Shown one piece after another: positions 41,839-51,276 of a stretch of 64,000 nt of DNA. How positions within the stretch are numbered: the first letter of the stretch is position 1; every line of letters starts with the position of its first letter. Both the position numbers and the translations under genes were made by a program. Where the stretch lies: assembly GCF_008330225.1 (NCBI RefSeq), contig NZ_CP042466.1:940501-1004500 (forward strand), read 5' to 3'. This stretch comes from Geobacter sp. FeAm09. Its GTDB lineage: Bacteria > Desulfobacterota > Desulfuromonadia > Geobacterales > Pseudopelobacteraceae. The notes beneath the pieces are model-generated. The model was given only the letters and a program-made list of their open reading frames with translations. It did no database searches and was not told the DNA's origin.

Positions 41839-42513
41839 ATGAGCGGTATGAGGGTGTTGCTATTCGGCGCCACCGGCATGGTGGGGCAGGGGGTACTGCG
41901 GGAATGCCTCCTGGATGGGGAGGTGGCCTTCGTGCAGACCGTGGGGCGAACCGCCACCGGGGTGGCGCAGCCCAAGCTGCGGGAACTGCTGCACCCGGAC
42001 CTGTGGCACTACGGGGCGATCGAGGGGGATCTGACCGGCTTCGACGCCTGTTTCTTCTGTCTGGGCACGTCGTCGGCCGGCAAGGGGGAGGCAGAGTATA
42101 CCCGCATCACCTACGACCTCGCCATGGCCGCCGCCCAGACCCTGGTGCGGCTCAACCCGCACATGACCTTCGTCTATGTCTCCGGCGTCGGGGCAGACAG
42201 TTCGGAACAGGGGCGGGTCATGTGGGCCCGGGTGCGGGGGAGGCTCGAAAATGCGCTCATGCGCCTCCCCTTCCGCGGGGTCTACATCTTCCGCCCCGGC
42301 GCGATCCAGCCGTTGCACGGCATCGAGTCAAAGACGAAATCCTACCGCCTGCTCTACCGCCTGCTGGGACCGGTGCTGCCGCTGCTGCGCCGGGCCTTTC
42401 CCGGCCGCATCACCACCACCGAGCGGATCGGACGCGCCATGCTCCGGGTGGCGCGCTACGGGGCTGACAGGCAGATCCTGGAATCCCGGGACCTGGAGAC
42501 GTTAGCGGTCTGA
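41839..42513 (+). CDS. NAD(P)-binding Rossmann-fold protein (epimerase-like)
   Basis: A 224-residue protein with an N-terminal dinucleotide fold: MRVLLFGATGMVGQGVLRECL. It resembles atypical SDR or NmrA/HTATIP2-like proteins. It lacks the YxxxK pair; residues FVYVSGVGADSSEQGRVMWARVRGRLENAL occupy that place, in which the usual Tyr is not seen. IFRPGAIQPLHG follows. It may be a redox sensor or assembly factor rather than an enzyme. AGGAGG lies 8 nt before the ATG. The 3' end overlaps the convergent dehydrogenase gene by 12 nt. Confidence 0.82.
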   Translation: MSGMRVLLFGATGMVGQGVLRECLLDGEVAFVQTVGRTATGVAQPKLRELLHPDLWHYGAIEGDLTGFDACFFCLGTSSAGKGEAEYTRITYDLAMAAAQTLVRLNPHMTFVYVSGVGADSSEQGRVMWARVRGRLENALMRLPFRGVYIFRPGAIQPLHGIESKTKSYRLLYRLLGPVLPLLRRAFPGRITTTERIGRAMLRVARYGADRQILESRDLETLAV

Positions 42514-43419
42514 GGGAATTTGCTCCGGGGCAGAGGAGAGGGGACGACGCTTCCCGTATGCCTCCGCTTCCAGCACCCGGACCACGCCGATGACGTCCTC
42601 TTCCCCCAGGCCGCATTCCACGGCCCGGGTGAAAAGGGAATGGCTCACCTTGGCCGCGGGGGTGTTCACGCCCAGGCGCTCCGCCTCCCGGCAGATGAGA
42701 TCGATATCCTTCACCACGTGCTTGAGGCCGGCCTGGGGCGCAAAATCCCGGGCCAGCAGCTTGGGTGCCTTGGCCCGGAAGATGTCGTTCGCCATCTGCC
42801 CCTCCAGGACGAGATCCAGGAAGCGCTCCGGGTCGAGCCCTCCGGCGGCGGCGAAATGACAGGCCTCCGCGAACGCCTCCAGCATGGCCGTGAGGAGCAG
42901 GTTGTTGGCCAGTTTCATCCGCATGGCGTTGGGCGGGGCGCCGCAGAGCACCGTTTTTTTGCCGATGGCGTCAAAGAGCGGCGCCAGCCGGTCCGTATCG
43001 GCCCCGTCCCCCGCGGCAAGCACCACGAGGGCCCCCGCCTCGGCCGGTTTGCGCGAGCCGGACACCGGGGCCTCCACATAGCGTCCCCCCGCCGCCGTCA
43101 CCGCCCCGGCCAGCCGTTCGGAATACTCGGGGGCCACGGTCGCCATGTTCACGACGATCCTGCCCGATATCTCCGCCGTGATGCGCCCCCCGTCACGCCC
43201 CAGGACCTGATCGATCTCCCGGTCGCCCGGCAGGAGCAGCAGGGCCGCATCGGCGGCCAGAAACGCCTCCCGGGCCGACGGGGCGATGGCCGCCGCCCCC
43301 CGGAACGGCTCACACCGGGCGCTCGTCCGGTTGTACACGGTAAGGGGAAAGCCCGCCTTCAGCAGATTGCGGGCAATCGGCTCGCCCATGGCCCCCAGCC
43401 CGATAACGCTGATCTTCAT
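42502..43419 (-). CDS. Beta-hydroxyacid dehydrogenase (3-hydroxyisobutyrate/glyoxylate-succinic semialdehyde reductase family)
   Basis: A 305-residue NAD(P)-dependent enzyme. The cofactor site is ISVIGLGAMGEPIARNLLKAG. The substrate motif is FVEAPVSGSRKPAEAG-like (VEAPVSGSRKPAEAG), and the catalytic Lys lies in AMRMKLANNLLLTAMLEAFAEA. Geobacter enzymes of this type reduce glyoxylate and succinic semialdehyde, which is the best guess here. GGGAGA lies 7 nt before the ATG. The last 12 nt overlap the convergent neighbour. Confidence 0.9.
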   Translation of the reverse strand: MKISVIGLGAMGEPIARNLLKAGFPLTVYNRTSARCEPFRGAAAIAPSAREAFLAADAALLLLPGDREIDQVLGRDGGRITAEISGRIVVNMATVAPEYSERLAGAVTAAGGRYVEAPVSGSRKPAEAGALVVLAAGDGADTDRLAPLFDAIGKKTVLCGAPPNAMRMKLANNLLLTAMLEAFAEACHFAAAGGLDPERFLDLVLEGQMANDIFRAKAPKLLARDFAPQAGLKHVVKDIDLICREAERLGVNTPAAKVSHSLFTRAVECGLGEEDVIGVVRVLEAEAYGKRRPLSSAPEQIPSDR

Positions 43420-43519
43420 TGTGGCATCTCCCTAGTTGATGGGCTTGCACCGTCCAATGGCTTGTACCGTTCTGGCCGCTGCGTGATCTGCCCACCTTTG
43501 ACAATTGACTTCGCCACTT

Positions 43520-45847
43520 TTATTCCGGTAAATCGTACTGTTGCCTGCCGCGTCTGAATTGTTCGCGCAACTCTTTGGCCATGCTTGGATTAAGCTCCTT
43601 TAGCTTGCCATATGCGAAAAGCGCCTCAAGCCTCTTGTTCTGCTGTATGAAAAGGGCAGTTTGCATTACCCATGCGGCCGGAAGTTTTGGCTCCTGCTGC
43701 AAGAGTTTTTCAATAGAGGTCTGCGCCTTGGCATGCTGGCCGGTGCCCGCATAGGCCTGGGTGATGAAAAGCTGCGCATCCGGGGCGCCTGGAGCTAACT
43801 GGAGCCCCTTCTCCAAGGTGACGATGGCTTTGCCCGCCTCATTTTTGCGCAAATAGGTTTCCCCGAGATTGATCCAGGCATTGGCGAAATCGGGTTGCAG
43901 CCTGATAGCGGTCCCCAAAGCCCGTTCAGCCTCGGCATAACGCTTGAGCTTTAGAAGCGAGTAACCTTTGTTGCTCCAGGAACTGGCGGAGGCCGGATTG
44001 ATCTCCAACGCGCGATCTGCATAATGTATGGCCCTGTCATAATCTCCCTGTCTGCTGAAGTACATGGTGAGGCCCTGAAGTGCGGCCTCATTTTTGGGAT
44101 TGATTCTTTCAGCCTCCCGCAATGATTTTAATCCCTCTTCATCACGCCTCAGGCGAATTTGCATCTCGCCTAATTGGGCCCAGAGCTCGCCTCTTGATGG
44201 ATCAAGCTCGGCTGCCTTCTGGAGTGCCGTAACAGCTTGCGGGAGCTTTTTCACGTCGCGGAGCAGCAAACCGAGGGAATACCAGGCATCAAATAGTGCT
44301 GGCTCGGTAATGGTCGCCTTTTCGTACGCCTCGATCGCCTCCTCTTTGGCGCCGCGGTCCCTCAGGATAATGCCCAGGTTGTGCCAGGCAATTCCGAAGT
44401 CGCCTTTGAGCTTGACCGCCTGACGGAATGCGTTTTCTGCCTCCTTGCTGCGGTTGCTCCTTTGGAGAATGCCTCCAAGGCTGTTCCAGGCCTCCGGCAT
44501 GGATGGATTAAGCTCCAGTGCCTTTCGATATGCCTTCTCTGCCTCGAAATAGCGTTGTTTCTTTCCTTCGGTCACTCCAATGTTGTACCACGTCTGGTAG
44601 TCATTTGACTGCCTGCCCGAATTGCCGTCCAGTGCCTGGCGCGCGGCATCCGATTCGCCAAGAAAGGCCAGTGCCGAAGCCATATTGCTCAAGGTGGTGG
44701 GGTCGTTTGGTTTTAATCGTAATGCAGCGCGATAGGCTTCTACCGCTTCACGATACTGGCGTTTTCCTTGACGCAATTCCCCCAGGTACTCCCAAGAGCT
44801 CCAATCTCCCGGCGCAAGGCGCAAGGCCGCATCAATGGAGGTAAAGGCTCCATCCACGTTGCCGTCGATCTTTTGCCACTCGGCCAAGATGCGGTATGCG
44901 TATCCGAGCGACGGGTTCAACGCCTGGGCATGCCGCAGATCGTCGTATGCCGCGCTTTTGTCCCCAAGAGTGCGCTGCACGATGGAAAGATAGCTGACTG
45001 CACCCACATTTCGCGGGTTCTTTTTCAGGGCCGAATGGAGCGCCTCCTTCGCCAGTCGTGTTTGATTCGTTTTATACAAGGCGACGGCAAGATAGTAATC
45101 AGCCATGGATGAGGTCGGCCATGCCTTCTCCCAACTGCGGGCCCATTCCACGAGTTTGGCCCACTCCTCCGAGTTCCTTAGTGATTCCGCTGTAGCGAGC
45201 CATGGAGGGTCTGGAGCCGGATTCGCTGTTTTGGGAGGTAGAGGATCTTTTTGCCGCAGATCGGCAATCCACTCGGCCGGTACGGCCATATTGAAATTCT
45301 GAGCTCCGAAATACGTCTCGGTTGTGATGCCGATTAACTGCCCTTGGACGTCGAATAGACCGCCGCCGCTGGAACCGGGAGAGACCGGGGCGCTTGTAAA
45401 AATTTTTGTTTCACTCTGAGTACGTTTTATGTTCGAAATGAGCCCTGAGCTTTCTGAAAGGCCGAAACCGAGGGGGTTGCCGACTGCATAGACCGGTTCG
45501 CCTTTGGCTAAGTCTGCGCTCGATCTGATCTTTATGGCAGGCGCTTGCAATTCAGCCACCTGCAATAAACAGAGATCACGTTTCAAATCCTCCGTAACCA
45601 GGGCTGCCGGGAGCTTTTTCCCTGCTGCGTACACAATAATGGCATTTGCCTCATTCACCACATGGCAGTTGGTAACAACCTGTCCGGGGCTAACGACGAC
45701 GCCGCTTCCCTCCCCGTTGATCTGCTTTCGTTCGTCCAGAGTGGAGATCGTGACAACCGAACCACGCACGCGCTCAAAGACTTGTTCGGCCTCACCGGCG
45801 TGGGCGGCAAGGCCGCAGAGGAATATAGAAAGAAACAGCGCTTTCAT
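43520..45847 (-). CDS. Trypsin-like serine protease fused to TPR repeats (intact triad)
   Basis: A 775-residue exported protein. A signal peptide (MKALFLSIFLCGLAAHA) is followed by a trypsin/DegP-like domain (about 20-205) with triad His62 (TNCHVV), Asp91 (KRDLCLLQV) and Ser160 (SPGSSGGGLFD). From about residue 230 to 760 run some fourteen TPR repeats, such as EAWNSLGGILQRSNRSKEAENAFRQAVKLKG. No PDZ domain is present. The TPRs probably recruit substrates or partners. The ATG overlaps the stop of the upstream pseudo-protease gene (ATGA), so both are made together. The codon use is less GC-biased than in neighbours, suggesting transfer. Confidence 0.93.
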   Translation of the reverse strand: MKALFLSIFLCGLAAHAGEAEQVFERVRGSVVTISTLDERKQINGEGSGVVVSPGQVVTNCHVVNEANAIIVYAAGKKLPAALVTEDLKRDLCLLQVAELQAPAIKIRSSADLAKGEPVYAVGNPLGFGLSESSGLISNIKRTQSETKIFTSAPVSPGSSGGGLFDVQGQLIGITTETYFGAQNFNMAVPAEWIADLRQKDPLPPKTANPAPDPPWLATAESLRNSEEWAKLVEWARSWEKAWPTSSMADYYLAVALYKTNQTRLAKEALHSALKKNPRNVGAVSYLSIVQRTLGDKSAAYDDLRHAQALNPSLGYAYRILAEWQKIDGNVDGAFTSIDAALRLAPGDWSSWEYLGELRQGKRQYREAVEAYRAALRLKPNDPTTLSNMASALAFLGESDAARQALDGNSGRQSNDYQTWYNIGVTEGKKQRYFEAEKAYRKALELNPSMPEAWNSLGGILQRSNRSKEAENAFRQAVKLKGDFGIAWHNLGIILRDRGAKEEAIEAYEKATITEPALFDAWYSLGLLLRDVKKLPQAVTALQKAAELDPSRGELWAQLGEMQIRLRRDEEGLKSLREAERINPKNEAALQGLTMYFSRQGDYDRAIHYADRALEINPASASSWSNKGYSLLKLKRYAEAERALGTAIRLQPDFANAWINLGETYLRKNEAGKAIVTLEKGLQLAPGAPDAQLFITQAYAGTGQHAKAQTSIEKLLQQEPKLPAAWVMQTALFIQQNKRLEALFAYGKLKELNPSMAKELREQFRRGRQQYDLPE

Positions 45848-47655
45848 GGGGTATCACCGTAAGGCAACAGCAAGTCTTTGTAGGCCCGCTCTCCCCACGA
45901 CCTGTCGAGTGCCTGAAGTTTCCGATAGGCGTGCTTCACGTCGTCCTTTCTCCCCGCCATGTGGTAAGCACGCATCAGCGCCAGCCAAACCTTGGCCTGG
46001 CCGGCTTCGATGCCCAGCGACTGTTCATATGCCGGGATAGCCTTTTCCGGTTGGGCCTGATAGGCGTGGATGTAGCCAATTTGCCGCCACGGGAACGGGT
46101 CTTTGGGGTTTTCCTTTCTTAACTGTTCGAACAGGGGCAGGGCCTCTTCAAACTCGAGATTGTCCTTCAGGGCGACTCCCAGGCGTCCCCGAAGCGAGGA
46201 GTCGTCCGGGATAATTTTTAACGCATCGCGATAAGCCTGAATCGCCTCGGGATAAAGACCCATGCCGTAGTAGAGGTCTCCTAGCCACCCCAATCCCAGG
46301 GATGGGCGCGACGGCTGCCGACCAAGCCCGCTTTTCAGGGCCTCTGCCGCATCGCGAAAACGCTTGAGCGCATAGAGCGCGCCCCCCTTCATAATCAGGG
46401 CGTCTCCGTTAGATGGAGCGATTTCGAGCGCCTTTTCGGCGCTGTTAAGAGCCAGTTCATTGCTGCCGGCAGCACGGTATAGTTCGGAAAGGAAAAGCCA
46501 GGATTCGATTTCTTCCGGCGCTAGCCGGACGATGTGCCGTTGGGCGGCTAGCGCTGCATTCAAATCGTTACGGGCTTTCGCCAGATTTATGAGGCCGATA
46601 TAGGCATTCCGGTTCCACGGTTCGAGCCGGACAGCATCCTCAAAAGCGGACTTTGCTTCATCAAAGTGGCCGAGCGCCATTTCCGCATATGCAATGACAC
46701 GCCAGACCCGCCCGTCTTCCCGGCGGAACTCCAGCATCGAGCGGCCCGCATCAAGGCTTTCCTGCTTTTTGTTCTGCCGCAGGAGTGCAGCGGCAAGTCC
46801 GATACCTGCCTGAAGGCTTGCAGGCCCACGTTTCAAGGCTTCACGGTAAGCCTTTTCCACTGATGGCCAATCCTTGAGTTGTTCCCGCGCATAGGCGAGG
46901 CAGAGCCAGGCTTCGATACTGTCCGTTAACGCTTCGCTCCATCTTGAAGCAACCTCTGCGAGTTCCTGCCATTTTTTTTCGTTTTCAAGCTTATTGGTCC
47001 TGGCCCGCCAGGATTCAACGGCGTCGGTGGATAGGGATCGCCCCTCTATTTCCGCGATCCATCGGGCCGGGAGAGCGAAATTAACATTCTGCCCGTCTCT
47101 CGGCAGATAGTTGATAAGCCCCACCAGTCTGCCATCTTCATCGAACAAACCGCCCCCTTCCGAGCCCGGTGCAATCGGGGCGGTGAATTGTATAAACGTG
47201 TCGCCTTTAGCCTCCCGAATCCCTGAAACCACTCCTTCGCTGATGCTGATGCCGAGGCCAAGAGTATTGCCGATGGCATAGACTCTGGAACCGGTTTGCG
47301 GATTGGTTGCCCGTTGTTGTGGCGGGGTGGATATCGGTAGCCCCGACACCTGCAAAAAACAGAGATTACGGGCAACATCCTTCTGCATGGGGCGGGCGGA
47401 AAACGTTTTGTCGCCTTGGCGTAGCCGCAAAGTTGCAGCACCATCCAACAAGTTGCACTGGGATACTGCCTTTTCATTGTCCACCAGCAGCGCCGTGTGG
47501 GCTGAAAGCAGTTTTCCCTTGTCGTCCAGTCTCTCCAGGACGAGCACACGTCCTTCCGAACTACGGAAGATCTCTTGCGGCGTAAGGGCAAACGATGTTA
47601 ACGGGGGATATGCGGCTAAAAAGCAGATGAAGGCCAGGATAGAAAGAAGATTCAT
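45844..47655 (-). CDS. Catalytically dead protease-TPR paralogue
   Basis: A 603-residue exported protein aligned with the product of the next gene. The signal peptide MNLLSILAFICFLAAYPPLTSFA is followed by a trypsin-like fold in which all three triad positions are changed: His to Asn68 (SQCNLL), Asp to Asn97 (ARNLCFLQV) and Ser to Glu166 (APGSEGGGLFD). The flanking Cys, Gly and hydrophobic residues are kept, so the fold should persist. About ten TPR units follow from residue 230. It is first in the two-gene operon, with a 4-nt overlap to the active protease. It probably acts as a scaffold, inhibitor or regulator. Confidence 0.9.
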   Translation of the reverse strand: MNLLSILAFICFLAAYPPLTSFALTPQEIFRSSEGRVLVLERLDDKGKLLSAHTALLVDNEKAVSQCNLLDGAATLRLRQGDKTFSARPMQKDVARNLCFLQVSGLPISTPPQQRATNPQTGSRVYAIGNTLGLGISISEGVVSGIREAKGDTFIQFTAPIAPGSEGGGLFDEDGRLVGLINYLPRDGQNVNFALPARWIAEIEGRSLSTDAVESWRARTNKLENEKKWQELAEVASRWSEALTDSIEAWLCLAYAREQLKDWPSVEKAYREALKRGPASLQAGIGLAAALLRQNKKQESLDAGRSMLEFRREDGRVWRVIAYAEMALGHFDEAKSAFEDAVRLEPWNRNAYIGLINLAKARNDLNAALAAQRHIVRLAPEEIESWLFLSELYRAAGSNELALNSAEKALEIAPSNGDALIMKGGALYALKRFRDAAEALKSGLGRQPSRPSLGLGWLGDLYYGMGLYPEAIQAYRDALKIIPDDSSLRGRLGVALKDNLEFEEALPLFEQLRKENPKDPFPWRQIGYIHAYQAQPEKAIPAYEQSLGIEAGQAKVWLALMRAYHMAGRKDDVKHAYRKLQALDRSWGERAYKDLLLPYGDTP

Positions 47656-47722
47656 ATGGTGTTTCCCTTGGCTTTGAGGAATTGATGCTGTCAATGCAAG
47701 GAATGTTCCCATACTCTGGGAG

Positions 47723-48229
47723 TTATATCTTCCTGCTGTCGTAGGCCCAGTGGAGCAGGGCCTGGCGCTGCTTTCTCCGGCAGGCCAGGTGCCCCTCCGG
47801 GCAGTTCTTGCGCAGTTGGGCCACGTGCCGCGCCATGGCCCGCCACCGCTTGATCTGCCGCGCGTCGTCGTCGCAGCGCCGCCCCAGGTAGTAGCGGCAG
47901 TACCACTGGAACCAGCCCCGGGGGTCGTCGCTGTGAATCCACCCTTTTTCCCGCCAGTAGGAAAGCGGTTTCGAGGCGTTGACGCCGAAGAAGTTCAACT
48001 CGGGCACGTGGCGCTCGTGGCAGAGCCGGGCGTTGGCGAACCACTCCCTGGGGAATTCGTCGGTGCAGTCGGTCAGGTACTTCCCCCCGAACACGCCCAG
48101 TTCCAGCATTTCCTGCGGGGTCAGCTCGGGCCGGAAGTCGGGATGGAAGTTCTCCCCCGCCGGTTCCGTCAGGTAATAGGCGTAATCCGTCTGCATCAGG
48201 TCGTTGACGCATATGCGCATCTTTTTCAT
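47723..48229 (-). CDS. Conserved hypothetical protein
   Basis: A 168-residue soluble protein from MKKMRICVNDLMQTDYAYYLTEP, with GGAG before the ATG. It has many aromatic residues and a conserved-looking core: GVFGGKYLTDCTDEFPREWFANARL, NFFGVNASKPLSYWREKGWI and DPRGWFQWYCRYYLGRR, followed by a basic helix rich in Arg/Lys. It resembles uncharacterised proteins found in bacteria and some eukaryotes. No enzyme motif was recognised. It lies upstream of the protease pair in the same direction, with normal high GC, so the less GC-rich island ends between them. Confidence 0.75.
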   Translation of the reverse strand: MKKMRICVNDLMQTDYAYYLTEPAGENFHPDFRPELTPQEMLELGVFGGKYLTDCTDEFPREWFANARLCHERHVPELNFFGVNASKPLSYWREKGWIHSDDPRGWFQWYCRYYLGRRCDDDARQIKRWRAMARHVAQLRKNCPEGHLACRRKQRQALLHWAYDSRKI

Positions 48230-49500: not shown

Positions 49501-49767
49501 CTGTTGCTCCGGATATGGTTGTGATGGGTGGAGCGTAACGGCGTCCCGCAAAGCGGCACCCAAGGCGGAGAAATATACACGCTTCCGCTTCGTGAAGCCA
49601 CAACATTCCGGCCGCCCGGTTCCCGGGGGCCGCTTGCAGACGCCGACCCCCTCCCTGTGCAAGGTGCCTCCCGCCATCGGCGTTTTCCCCTCCCGTTTGA
49701 CACCCTCCGGGCTGGTGCTAGACTTGCGACATAGTGTAAACAAAATTGTGTGCGGGGAGGCCGGATC

Positions 49768-51276
49768 ATGGAAAAGCGCATTGCAAAAGCAGCCGTGAGG
49801 ATGGTGCTCGTCCTCGGTTTCGTTGTGCTGGCGGCCTGTAGCGACGGGGGCGGGACGGCGGCAACCGGCACCGTCACGGGAACGGTGAAGGACAGCGTTA
49901 CCGGGGCTCCTCTGGCGGGCGTCACCGTCAGCAACGGCGGCGCCTCCGCCGTCACCGACGCCGCCGGCGTCTTCACCCTGGCCCGGCCGGGTGGCAGCCA
50001 TACCTTCACCGTCACGGCGACCGGCTACGAGAGCGCCTCGCGGGTCTGTACGGTGACCGCCGGCGCAACCACCACCCTCGATTGGCCCCTTGTCCCGGCT
50101 CACGCGCAGTACGTGGACTACACCGCCGTCGCGCCGTCGGCACAGATTCCGGCCGCCAGCATGAACTACGTCATCCTGGCCTGGAACGACCTGGGGATGC
50201 ACTGCGCCCAGGACGACTACTCCTATTTTCTGATCCTGCCGCCGTTCAACACCCTGCACGCCCAGGTGTTCCAGCGGGGCGCCGGCGTGGTGACGGACGG
50301 CATCACGGTGAACTATGCCTTTCCCGGGAAGAGCAATTCCGCACTCCATACCAACTTCTGGAATTATTCCAGCAAGTACCAGTACCGCACCCGGTATGGC
50401 TGGAACGTCGCCACCAACGTAGGCATCACCGGCACCCCCCTGGCGGGGGCCATGGCCCTTGACGCCAAAGGCGTCGGTTTTGTGGCCACCGGCATACCCC
50501 TCACCCCCTATGACGACGATGGCACCTGGGACCCCTACGGCGTGGCCACGATCACGGTCACCGATACCGCGACCGGGGCCGTCCTCGCCACCACCAGCGT
50601 CGTGGCGCCCGTTTCCACCGAGCTGAACTGCAGCAACTGCCACGGTACGGCGGACACCTTCCTCAATATCCTCCAGGCCCACGACAAGAACAGCGGCACG
50701 ACCCTGGTCGCCGACCGGGCGAACGGCATCCTCCACCTTTGTGCCGAATGTCACGCCGACAACGCCTTGGGACTTGCCGGCAAGGCAGGAGTGAAGAACC
50801 TGTCCCTGGCCATGCACGGCTTCCACCGGGGCAAGGTCAATGTGAGTGCCGATCCCAGGAACCCCGACTGTTACAACTGTCACCCCGGTCCCCGGACCAA
50901 CTGCCTGCGGGGCCAGATGTTCCATGTCGGCCAGGAGTGCAAGGATTGCCACGGCGATATGAACGGCATGACGAAAGACCTCCTCGCCGGGCGCAATCCC
51001 TGGCTCCAGGAACCCCGTTGCGGCGATTGCCACAGCGCCAAATACCAGGAAAACCCCGGCGTCCTGTACCGCAACTCGGTGCTTTCCAACGCCCCGGACC
51101 CGAAGATGAACGGCGTGATCTACTGCGAAGGGTGCCATAACAGCACCCATGCGGAATACAGCTCCGCCAATCCGGCGGACAACACGATCCCGCAGCAGCT
51201 TCAGGGGGACAATTACTGGGTCTGGAACTGCTACGTCTGCCACACCGATTACATGCCGATGACGGCCCACCAATAG
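49768..51276 (+). CDS. Seven-haem c-type cytochrome lipoprotein
   Basis: A 502-residue protein. The lipobox LAAC follows a short signal. Residues about 30-105 form a carboxypeptidase-regulatory-like beta domain (GTVTGTVKDSVTGAPLAGVTVSNGG). A central region of about 180 residues lacks known domains but has LAWNDLGMHC. The C-terminal third holds seven CxxCH haem sites: CSNCH, CAECH, CYNCH, CKDCH, CGDCH, CEGCH and CYVCH. It probably resides at the outer membrane and transfers electrons to extracellular acceptors. GGGAGG precedes the ATG at 7 nt. It stands alone. Confidence 0.92.
   Translation: MEKRIAKAAVRMVLVLGFVVLAACSDGGGTAATGTVTGTVKDSVTGAPLAGVTVSNGGASAVTDAAGVFTLARPGGSHTFTVTATGYESASRVCTVTAGATTTLDWPLVPAHAQYVDYTAVAPSAQIPAASMNYVILAWNDLGMHCAQDDYSYFLILPPFNTLHAQVFQRGAGVVTDGITVNYAFPGKSNSALHTNFWNYSSKYQYRTRYGWNVATNVGITGTPLAGAMALDAKGVGFVATGIPLTPYDDDGTWDPYGVATITVTDTATGAVLATTSVVAPVSTELNCSNCHGTADTFLNILQAHDKNSGTTLVADRANGILHLCAECHADNALGLAGKAGVKNLSLAMHGFHRGKVNVSADPRNPDCYNCHPGPRTNCLRGQMFHVGQECKDCHGDMNGMTKDLLAGRNPWLQEPRCGDCHSAKYQENPGVLYRNSVLSNAPDPKMNGVIYCEGCHNSTHAEYSSANPADNTIPQQLQGDNYWVWNCYVCHTDYMPMTAHQ

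Follow-up and report, generated by a model that had tools for sequence, protein, structure and literature searches.

A conserved pair of overlapping genes for a trypsin-like protease-TPR protein and its catalytically degenerate paralogue in Geobacter sp. FeAm09

The subject of this study is a pair of overlapping genes in a stretch of 64,000 nucleotides of the Geobacter sp. FeAm09 genome (contig NZ_CP042466.1, positions 940,501 to 1,004,500 of the forward strand), referred to here as the window. Both genes lie on the minus strand. The upstream gene, PSE (45844-47655 of the window), encodes a pseudoprotease-TPR protein of 603 amino acids, in which a trypsin-like domain with an altered active site is followed by tetratricopeptide repeats (TPRs); the downstream gene, ACT (43520-45847), encodes an active-type protease-TPR protein of 775 amino acids. 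The two open reading frames (ORFs) share the stop-start overlap ATGA at 45844-45847, in agreement with an earlier note made from the nucleotide sequence alone. The same note had described a trypsin-like fold fused to many TPRs in the downstream protein and the motifs around the altered positions in the upstream one. Pfam found fold and repeats in both: Trypsin_2 matched residues 47-174 of ACT (2.7e-30) and residues 54-180 of PSE (2.8e-20), with many TPRs C-terminal in each. A scan for promoters and terminators at the locus gave counts inside the range of shuffles.

Structures were predicted with AlphaFold2 from alignments of orthologues (mean predicted local distance difference test score 91.4 for PSE and 90.8 for ACT). 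The models contain 12 strands in each protease part, followed by a TPR superhelix. With Pfam and, for ACT, the alignment, they place the trypsin-like domain at residues 25-205 of PSE (47041-47583) and 19-199 of ACT (45251-45793). The superhelix has about 11 helical hairpins in PSE (45847-46971) and about 16 in ACT (43550-45202), as counted by hand on the models. The helix that joins protease and TPR parts is continuous in PSE (residues 197-225), whereas the ACT model has a loop instead. The predicted template modelling scores were only 0.60 (ACT) and 0.67 (PSE), and the arrangement of the domains is therefore uncertain in both. In a fold search with the full-length models the 50 matches listed were, to judge by their titles, TPR proteins or other helical-repeat proteins of that type, so that the search was uninformative on the protease part. 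Both proteins begin with a short hydrophobic stretch that ends in a small-residue motif (LAAHA-GE in ACT and LTSFA-LT in PSE). Read by eye, these stretches appear to be signal peptides, the one of PSE (residues 1-23, 47587-47655, ending in TSFA) a putative Sec signal peptide, and both proteins would then be exported. Inspection of the N-terminus of the window PSE revealed no lipobox; the ACT of Methylomonas fluvii (L035) has a possible one (LLGLPGC), which would anchor the enzyme to the membrane.

PSE and ACT are 27% identical over about 600 positions, that is, over most of their length (BLASTP). The alignment pairs VTNCHVV, KRDLCLL and PGSSGGG of ACT with VSQCNLL, ARNLCFL and PGSEGGG of PSE, and a multiple alignment agrees on the columns. 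The catalytic residues H62 (45662-45664), D91 (45575-45577) and S160 (45368-45370) of ACT thus correspond to N68 (47452-47454), N97 (47365-47367) and E166 (47158-47160) of PSE, the very replacements that the earlier note had read from the sequence. A shifted alignment that hides a triad was ruled out: the columns are flanked by C67, L98-C99, G164 and G167-G168, which, with P163, Q189 and N192, are invariant in 26 aligned PSE proteins. The cysteines C61 and C93 of ACT, which match C67 and C99 of PSE, are invariant in 24/24 ACT proteins.

The distribution of the pair was assessed in a genome collection with one genome per species (84,980 species), which was scanned with the protease-domain alignment. 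The 79 loci analysed derive from the best 80, ranked by similarity to the PSE protease domain, of 508 confirmed loci. In 25 of the 79, a protein without the triad was encoded directly upstream of, and on the same strand as, a protein with His, Asp and Ser (H-D-S); since the loci were chosen by similarity to PSE, this proportion is not a natural frequency. Scans of whole genomes added 13 more PSE loci, none identical to another (nine refetched identical loci were excluded from the count). Including the window, the set amounts to 39 PSE loci in 38 genomes from three phyla, 37 genomes besides that of the window; one genome, G777 (of L033), carries two. Some are close kin: the protease domains of L147 and L032 are 96% alike, those of L174 and L090 98%. 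An active-type partner gene follows directly downstream on the same strand in 39/39 loci. The partner has H-D-S in all 37 that are fully readable, and the two others end after the His, at a contig or locus end. The overlap NTGA (ATGA or GTGA; stop of PSE and possible start of ACT) occurs in 38/39 loci, the sole exception being L037 with an overlap of 1 base. No upstream homologue with an intact triad, a shifted alignment included, was found among the 39. For the 24 loci shared by both data sets the mean pairwise identity was 39% for PSE and 40% for ACT.

Besides the window genome, the hosts belong to the Nitrospirota, Betaproteobacteria and Gammaproteobacteria and include Thauera, Zoogloea, Methylomonas and Pseudorhodoferax. 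Scans of individual groups, whose samples overlap, gave counts that are lower bounds because few candidates per genome were scored. For the order of Zoogloea the count of genomes with the pair was at least 5 in 399; 30 loci were classified there, whereas seven matching genomes that scored no more than 119 bits, and some second matches, were left out. The family of Zoogloea gave at least 10 in 199 genomes, the order of Methylomonas at least 5 in 301 and the phylum of L029 at least 2 in 295. Within the window's own order, 0 of 56 relatives matched (E 1e-30). In its phylum, the Desulfobacterota, the count was at least 1 of 395, the window genome itself, and no PSE was found in the 18 other matching genomes; these include TPR-only matches (L023 and L026), a different dead domain (L027) and an H-N-S protein (L016). 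The 521 plasmid records contained no close relative, all matches being below 60% identity, and coverage of at least 80% was reached only by L009 and L010 (24% and 21% identity).

Several proteins met in these scans depart from the PSE/ACT arrangement. Those on the Variovorax plasmid (L009:5794-7956) and the Burkholderia plasmid record (L010:5830-7788) are TPR proteins with a protease-like domain in which His and Asp are kept and Ser is lost, and no second protease-domain ORF was present within the 13 kb examined; by eye, the L009 copy has pseudopilin, GspF-like and GspE-like genes after it, of the type II secretion kind. In L027:535-2364 (genome G328, from the window's phylum) one ORF holds two trypsin-like domains, the first S-D-E and thus dead, likewise with Glu at the nucleophile position, and the second H-D-S. 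Here nature has fused a dead domain to a live one; the case is a separate one, as the protein falls outside the PSE clade in the trees. Another family in the order of Zoogloea (L114, L115 and L119) has two adjacent trypsin-like ORFs, of which the upstream copy reads H-D-N in L114, H-N-S in L119 and H-D-S in L115; this looks like an independent, younger decay of the upstream copy. L016:940-2388 and L088, probably the same contig, encode a single protease-TPR protein in which only the Asp is changed (H-N-S).

The replaced residues vary among the 39 PSE proteins. At the His position we counted D in 21, N in 6, E in 6, S in 2, G in 2, A in 1 and R in 1; at the Asp position N in 28, H in 4, A in 2, and G, D, Q, E and R in 1 each; at the Ser position E in 27, D in 7, Q in 2, and T, G and A in 1 each. 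The letters Asn/Asn/Glu given in the earlier note are therefore those of the window PSE and differ among orthologues at all three positions. His was absent from the His position and Ser from the Ser position in 39/39 loci, against H-D-S in every fully readable partner, which rules out chance. An acidic residue occupies the place of the old nucleophile in 34/39, and D, N or E the place of the old His in 33/39. Unusual triads (E-R-A, R-N-G, D-Q-D, G-E-E and D-H-D), found in L180 (G1489), L171 (G1613), L177 (G1553), L179 (G1586) and L159-L162, all stand beside an active-type gene and are of use as natural variants.

Residues particular to PSE were identified by comparing 26 PSE proteins with the 26 paired ACT proteins and 66 single proteins. 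Y183 was found in 25/26 PSE, 0/26 ACT and 10/66 singles; R184 in 22/26, 0/26 and 0/66; R186 in 25/26, 1/26 and 8/66; and D187 in 22/26, 0/26 and 16/66. V191, close by, is also conserved in PSE but less frequent or missing in the active proteins. Outside this stretch, A131 (23/26, 0/26 and 0/66) and L40 (22/26, 1/26 and 1/66) were likewise biased, and further PSE-biased residues exist. Residues 183-193 form a loop and a strand (47077-47109), which read YLPRDGQNVNF here (consensus YRxRDGQNVNF) and which we take to be equivalent to loop L2 of DegP plus the strand that follows, beside the former S1 pocket. In DegP the S1 pocket is lined by these elements, which also contribute to the activation of HtrA proteases. 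Conserved residues of its own are not what a protein that had only lost its function should acquire. As judged from the orthologues, these comparisons show that the pseudo-active site has been kept as an altered, selected site.

For the 8 closest PSE pairs, the ratio of nonsynonymous to synonymous substitution (dN/dS) in the PSE protease domain was 0.11-0.21 in 6, synonymous changes being saturated in the other 2; for ACT it was 0.11-0.32 in 8/8 pairs. By this measure purifying selection acts on the PSE domain as it does on that of ACT. In a tree built with the triad masked, PSE formed one clade (39/39) and paired ACT another (37/37), each with a support of 99 (SH-aLRT), and 0 of 77 single-gene proteins fell inside the paired-ACT clade. 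This tree was a quick search without bootstrap. An earlier version held 26 PSE and 26 ACT, from which L007, L009, L010, L066 and L097 were left out whole, together with the duplicates L088, L094, L101 and L107 and hits shorter than 150 residues. The odd triads (R-N-G, G-E-E, D-Q-D, E-R-A and D-H-D) all lie within the PSE clade, and the catalytic residues were therefore probably lost once. The proposal of the earlier note, that the fold was kept under selection for a non-catalytic role, is supported by the dN/dS values, by the single clade of 39 and by the residues conserved only in PSE.

With regard to origin, the motif GNPLGxG/SNALGLG contains three residues (N124, L126 and G129 of ACT) that are common to PSE and paired ACT and mostly absent in singles: N124 in 26/26 ACT, 24/26 PSE and 5/66 singles, L126 in 26/26, 25/26 and 2/66. 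In the tree comparison a joint clade of PSE and paired ACT was not rejected (approximately unbiased test, p-AU 0.66; likelihood 3.4 better). Because the two proteins share residues that the singles mostly lack, the simplest reading is that the pair stems from one tandem duplication.

The pair looks foreign in the window genome, on three grounds: its low G+C content, the lack of a match in the 56 relatives of the order, and nearest kin in other phyla (Nitrospirota and proteobacterial metagenome-assembled genomes, by the tree and among the best 80 of the 508 loci). PSE and ACT contain 56.4% and 54.8% G+C versus 64.4% for the window, as the earlier note had said in general terms, and their third-position G+C is 0.61 each against 0.84-0.92 in five other genes measured. 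A segment at 42532-47724, which holds most of a dehydrogenase gene, ACT and PSE, is absent at the same site in the congeners G005 and G002, where only 26 and 29 bases separate the matches to window positions 42531 and 47725 (47727). This nearly empty site in two congeners implies that the window genome acquired about 5.2 kb, loss from both congeners being the less likely alternative. The dehydrogenase-like gene (42502-43419, minus strand) lies almost wholly inside the segment; its best NCBIfam model is 2-hydroxy-3-oxopropionate reductase, with a score below the cut-off, and it had no match in 5 congeners at 1e-60. Its third-position G+C of 0.86 is host-like, and the gain was therefore possibly not one event. 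The suggestion in the earlier note that the genes were acquired as a unit thus agrees with the empty site, but the segment carries this further gene as well. The segment ends, compared as two stretches of 140 bases, showed no terminal repeat or target duplication and no common word of 8 or more bases, direct or inverted.

The genes around the pair were compared at 26 loci, with flanks of at most 7 kb upstream of the protease match and about 3.5 kb downstream of ACT (less on short contigs). Among the clusters listed, ORFs overlapping the pair aside, no third gene was seen travelling with it. The widest cluster outside the pair was a LysR-type regulator at 4/26 loci, clusters common to L047, L048 and L057 reflect synteny of close relatives, and flanking genes differed from locus to locus (14/26 loci listed). 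One shadow-ORF cluster spans 22 loci; 5 of its 39 members lie outside the pair and are not covered by this reading. Elsewhere in the window, 49750-51276 (plus strand) encodes a protein in whose translation seven CxxCH heme-binding motifs were counted by eye.

Among proteins of solved structure, a profile search placed DegQ (2.7e-22) and a DegP-like protein (4.6e-21) closest in sequence to the protease domain of PSE, and the trypsin-like domains of PSE and ACT are related to those of the HtrA family (DegP, DegQ, DegS and AlgW). HtrA proteins carry one or more C-terminal PDZ domains, whereas PSE and ACT have TPRs in their place: PDZ was absent from the Pfam list of PSE (25/25 families) and from the 25 of 44 families listed for ACT, and beyond residue 190 the ACT model shows no strand that reaches 3 residues. 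The Do-family model TIGR02037 scored 118.7 bits for ACT and 49.0 bits for PSE against a cut-off of 416.2. With no PDZ found and scores so far below the cut-off, membership of the Do-like HtrA family was rejected. A cytoplasmic defence system was considered as well. Inactive trypsin domains also occur in the bacterial MoxR-vWA (VMAP) conflict systems, as described in the available part of PMC7159879. Those are multi-gene NTPase systems, whereas the pair has apparent signal peptides and no conserved neighbours were seen. PADLOC matched the protease part of RT-Protease_XI (5.2e-14 for ACT and 1.6e-4 for PSE) and otherwise gave weaker protease or TPR matches. A defence role was rejected: the matches are to shared folds only, and no conserved defence-like neighbours were seen.

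The pairing of a live protease with a dead paralogue is a known general kind, to which PSE/ACT belongs in that the dead paralogue is conserved, selected and co-encoded. MamE/MamO likewise combine an active trypsin-like protease and a degenerate paralogue in one genome, and MamO activates MamE-dependent proteolysis non-catalytically, its own active site being dispensable (PMC4794232, in the text available). MamE/MamO, LimE/LimO and, in further magnetotactic groups, duplicated MamEs arose by duplication followed by loss, according to the accessible part of PMC3905215. MamO has a TauE-like membrane domain and a His-Asp-Thr triad, while MamE carries PDZ and cytochrome c domains; PSE, in contrast, has a site of the D/N-N-E type and no TauE-like domain, and its residues 197-599 are modelled as helical hairpins and match TPR-type Pfam families. 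Those partial texts mention no TPR array for MamE or MamO, whereas PSE and ACT are both fused to TPRs and their genes overlap by 4 bases.

A second likeness is to LbcA/CtpA (and NlpI/Prc), in which an envelope protease has a TPR partner of similar size; binding and activation by PSE would be the analogous step. The N-terminal adaptor domain of LbcA, together with a C-terminal TPR superhelix, serves to bind and activate CtpA (PMC11021448, available portion); LbcA has 63 kDa and 11 TPRs and is needed to degrade CtpA substrates (PMC6050968, available portion). These portions describe LbcA as a lipoprotein of adaptor domain and TPRs and mention no protease fold, whereas PSE and ACT each carry both folds and no lipobox was seen by eye in the window PSE. 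CtpA is a carboxyl-terminal processing protease, unlike ACT, which is Trypsin_2. Membership of the pair in the MamE/MamO or LbcA/CtpA systems is excluded by domain make-up. A third parallel comes from Clostridioides difficile. The Csp proteins belong to the subtilisin family, are not known to carry TPRs and, unlike PSE/ACT, are spore-specific. CspB is an active protease with the dead paralogues CspC and CspA, which act as signal receptors (PMC6464247, in the part available).

The earlier note knew of no described system of this type, which holds only for the TPR-fused form; MamE/MamO, CspB with CspA/CspC, and LbcA/CtpA are precedents for its parts. A survey that covered 91 prokaryote genomes and five families of serine proteases reported 42 inactive homologues (PMC2605481); the main text, as far as available, does not mention 'TPR', and the available part of PMC8195603 has nothing on such a pair. 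Among the open-access papers listed by searches on such pairs and on bacterial pseudoproteases, none was recognisable as a description of a TPR-fused protease/pseudoprotease pair. The kind is thus already known, and what would be new is its form as two TPR-fused, overlapping and laterally moving genes.

The recurrence of the same overlapping pair in many unrelated bacteria makes it probable that the dead twin functions together with the live protease and is not a decaying copy. We favour, with about even confidence, the reading that PSE and ACT form one envelope protease system in which PSE is a non-catalytic activator or substrate adaptor of ACT. The two would be subunits or obligate partners, periplasmic or exported, and ACT, with its canonical His-Asp-Ser triad, would do the cutting. 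PSE would bind ACT and, without cutting itself, switch it on and/or hold substrates; its remodelled pocket would be a binding or docking site, and the two TPR superhelices may gather substrate proteins or attach to some further part of the envelope. PSE would thereby look like a combination of MamO logic with the TPR idea of LbcA in one protein.

Several points weigh against this reading. Contact between PSE and ACT, the activity of ACT, the localisation and the substrate are all hypothetical, and for MamE and MamO themselves no physical interaction was detected (PMC4794232, in the text available). Of the 79 loci, 54 lack PSE, and the commoner occurrence of single active protease-TPR proteins means that this type of enzyme needs no partner in general. 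The letter at the His position varies (entropy rank 104 among the 181 protease columns), and the pocket is accordingly not under rigid conservation; nor is the altered site uniform, given the variants R-N-G, E-R-A and G-D-T, which have no acidic residue at the Ser position and of which G-D-T keeps the Asp. The window PSE has L, not R, at position 184. The distance matrices of PSE and ACT correlate strongly (24 loci; r 0.96 at full length, with 0/5000 permutations as high, and r 0.82 for the protease domains alone). Such a correlation is expected for any linked genes inherited together, and it shows common descent of the pair, not proof of contact.

A bolder form of the proposal, which we regard as possible though doubtful, is that of a mobile, self-contained two-gene envelope protease, in which the paralogues share out catalysis and the choice of substrate: ACT cuts, and the old active site of PSE has become a receptor pocket that opens ACT allosterically. 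The acidic nucleophile position and the rebuilt Tyr/Arg/Asp loop would recognise a peptide end, a metal or another ligand, both TPR superhelices would form a common substrate cradle, and the pair would have spread laterally among environmental bacteria.

Sensing could also be the whole function: the remodelled pocket of PSE would bind a ligand (metal, peptide or small molecule) and relay its state to ACT, as CspC and CspA probably do for CspB in spores. The residues at the nucleophile and His positions, near the conserved Tyr, Arg and Asp, would make a polar pocket, MamO binds transition metals (PMC4794232, in the text available) and CspC and CspA have been implicated as receptors of germinant and co-germinant (PMC6464247, likewise). 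The letters vary at these two positions, however, and pocket geometry and ligand are hypothetical; we consider sensing alone unlikely, although sensor and activator roles could both be true at once. It is likewise improbable that PSE is a dedicated inhibitor, a dead copy that sits on the dimer interface or substrate site of ACT until a signal frees it. Pseudoproteases are known in such a role from the iRhoms (PMC3149277, in the part available), the putative inhibitor gene comes first, and the overlap would keep inhibitor and enzyme in step, but a simple plug would need neither about 11 TPR hairpins nor its own pocket loop, and related single-gene active proteins exist without an adjoining PSE. 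Still less probable is that PSE and ACT serve the same process without contact, the overlap merely equalising dosage. A third component could be the docking partner of each TPR array, but no third gene was seen to accompany the pair in the clusters listed for 26 loci, and PSE occurs without ACT in 0/39. That PSE is a decaying, functionless duplicate, as its lost catalytic residues and variable His position might suggest, is rejected as highly improbable by the dN/dS values similar to those of ACT, the single clade over three phyla, the conserved overlap and a mean identity close to that of ACT.

The pair bears on a wider question, the control of a live protease by a dead one, for which bacteria have provided few general rules; the worked cases considered here are those of MamO and the Csp proteins. 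PSE/ACT offers 39 orthologous pairs in fixed order, with the same overlap in 38 of them and apparently one origin, single-gene active relatives as controls, hosts that include named strains and an empty site in close relatives. These features make the question of activator, inhibitor or receptor directly testable. Animals have cofactor pairs of a serine protease and a serine protease homologue; if the old active site of PSE is indeed a receptor pocket, the pair would be a bacterial counterpart of these.

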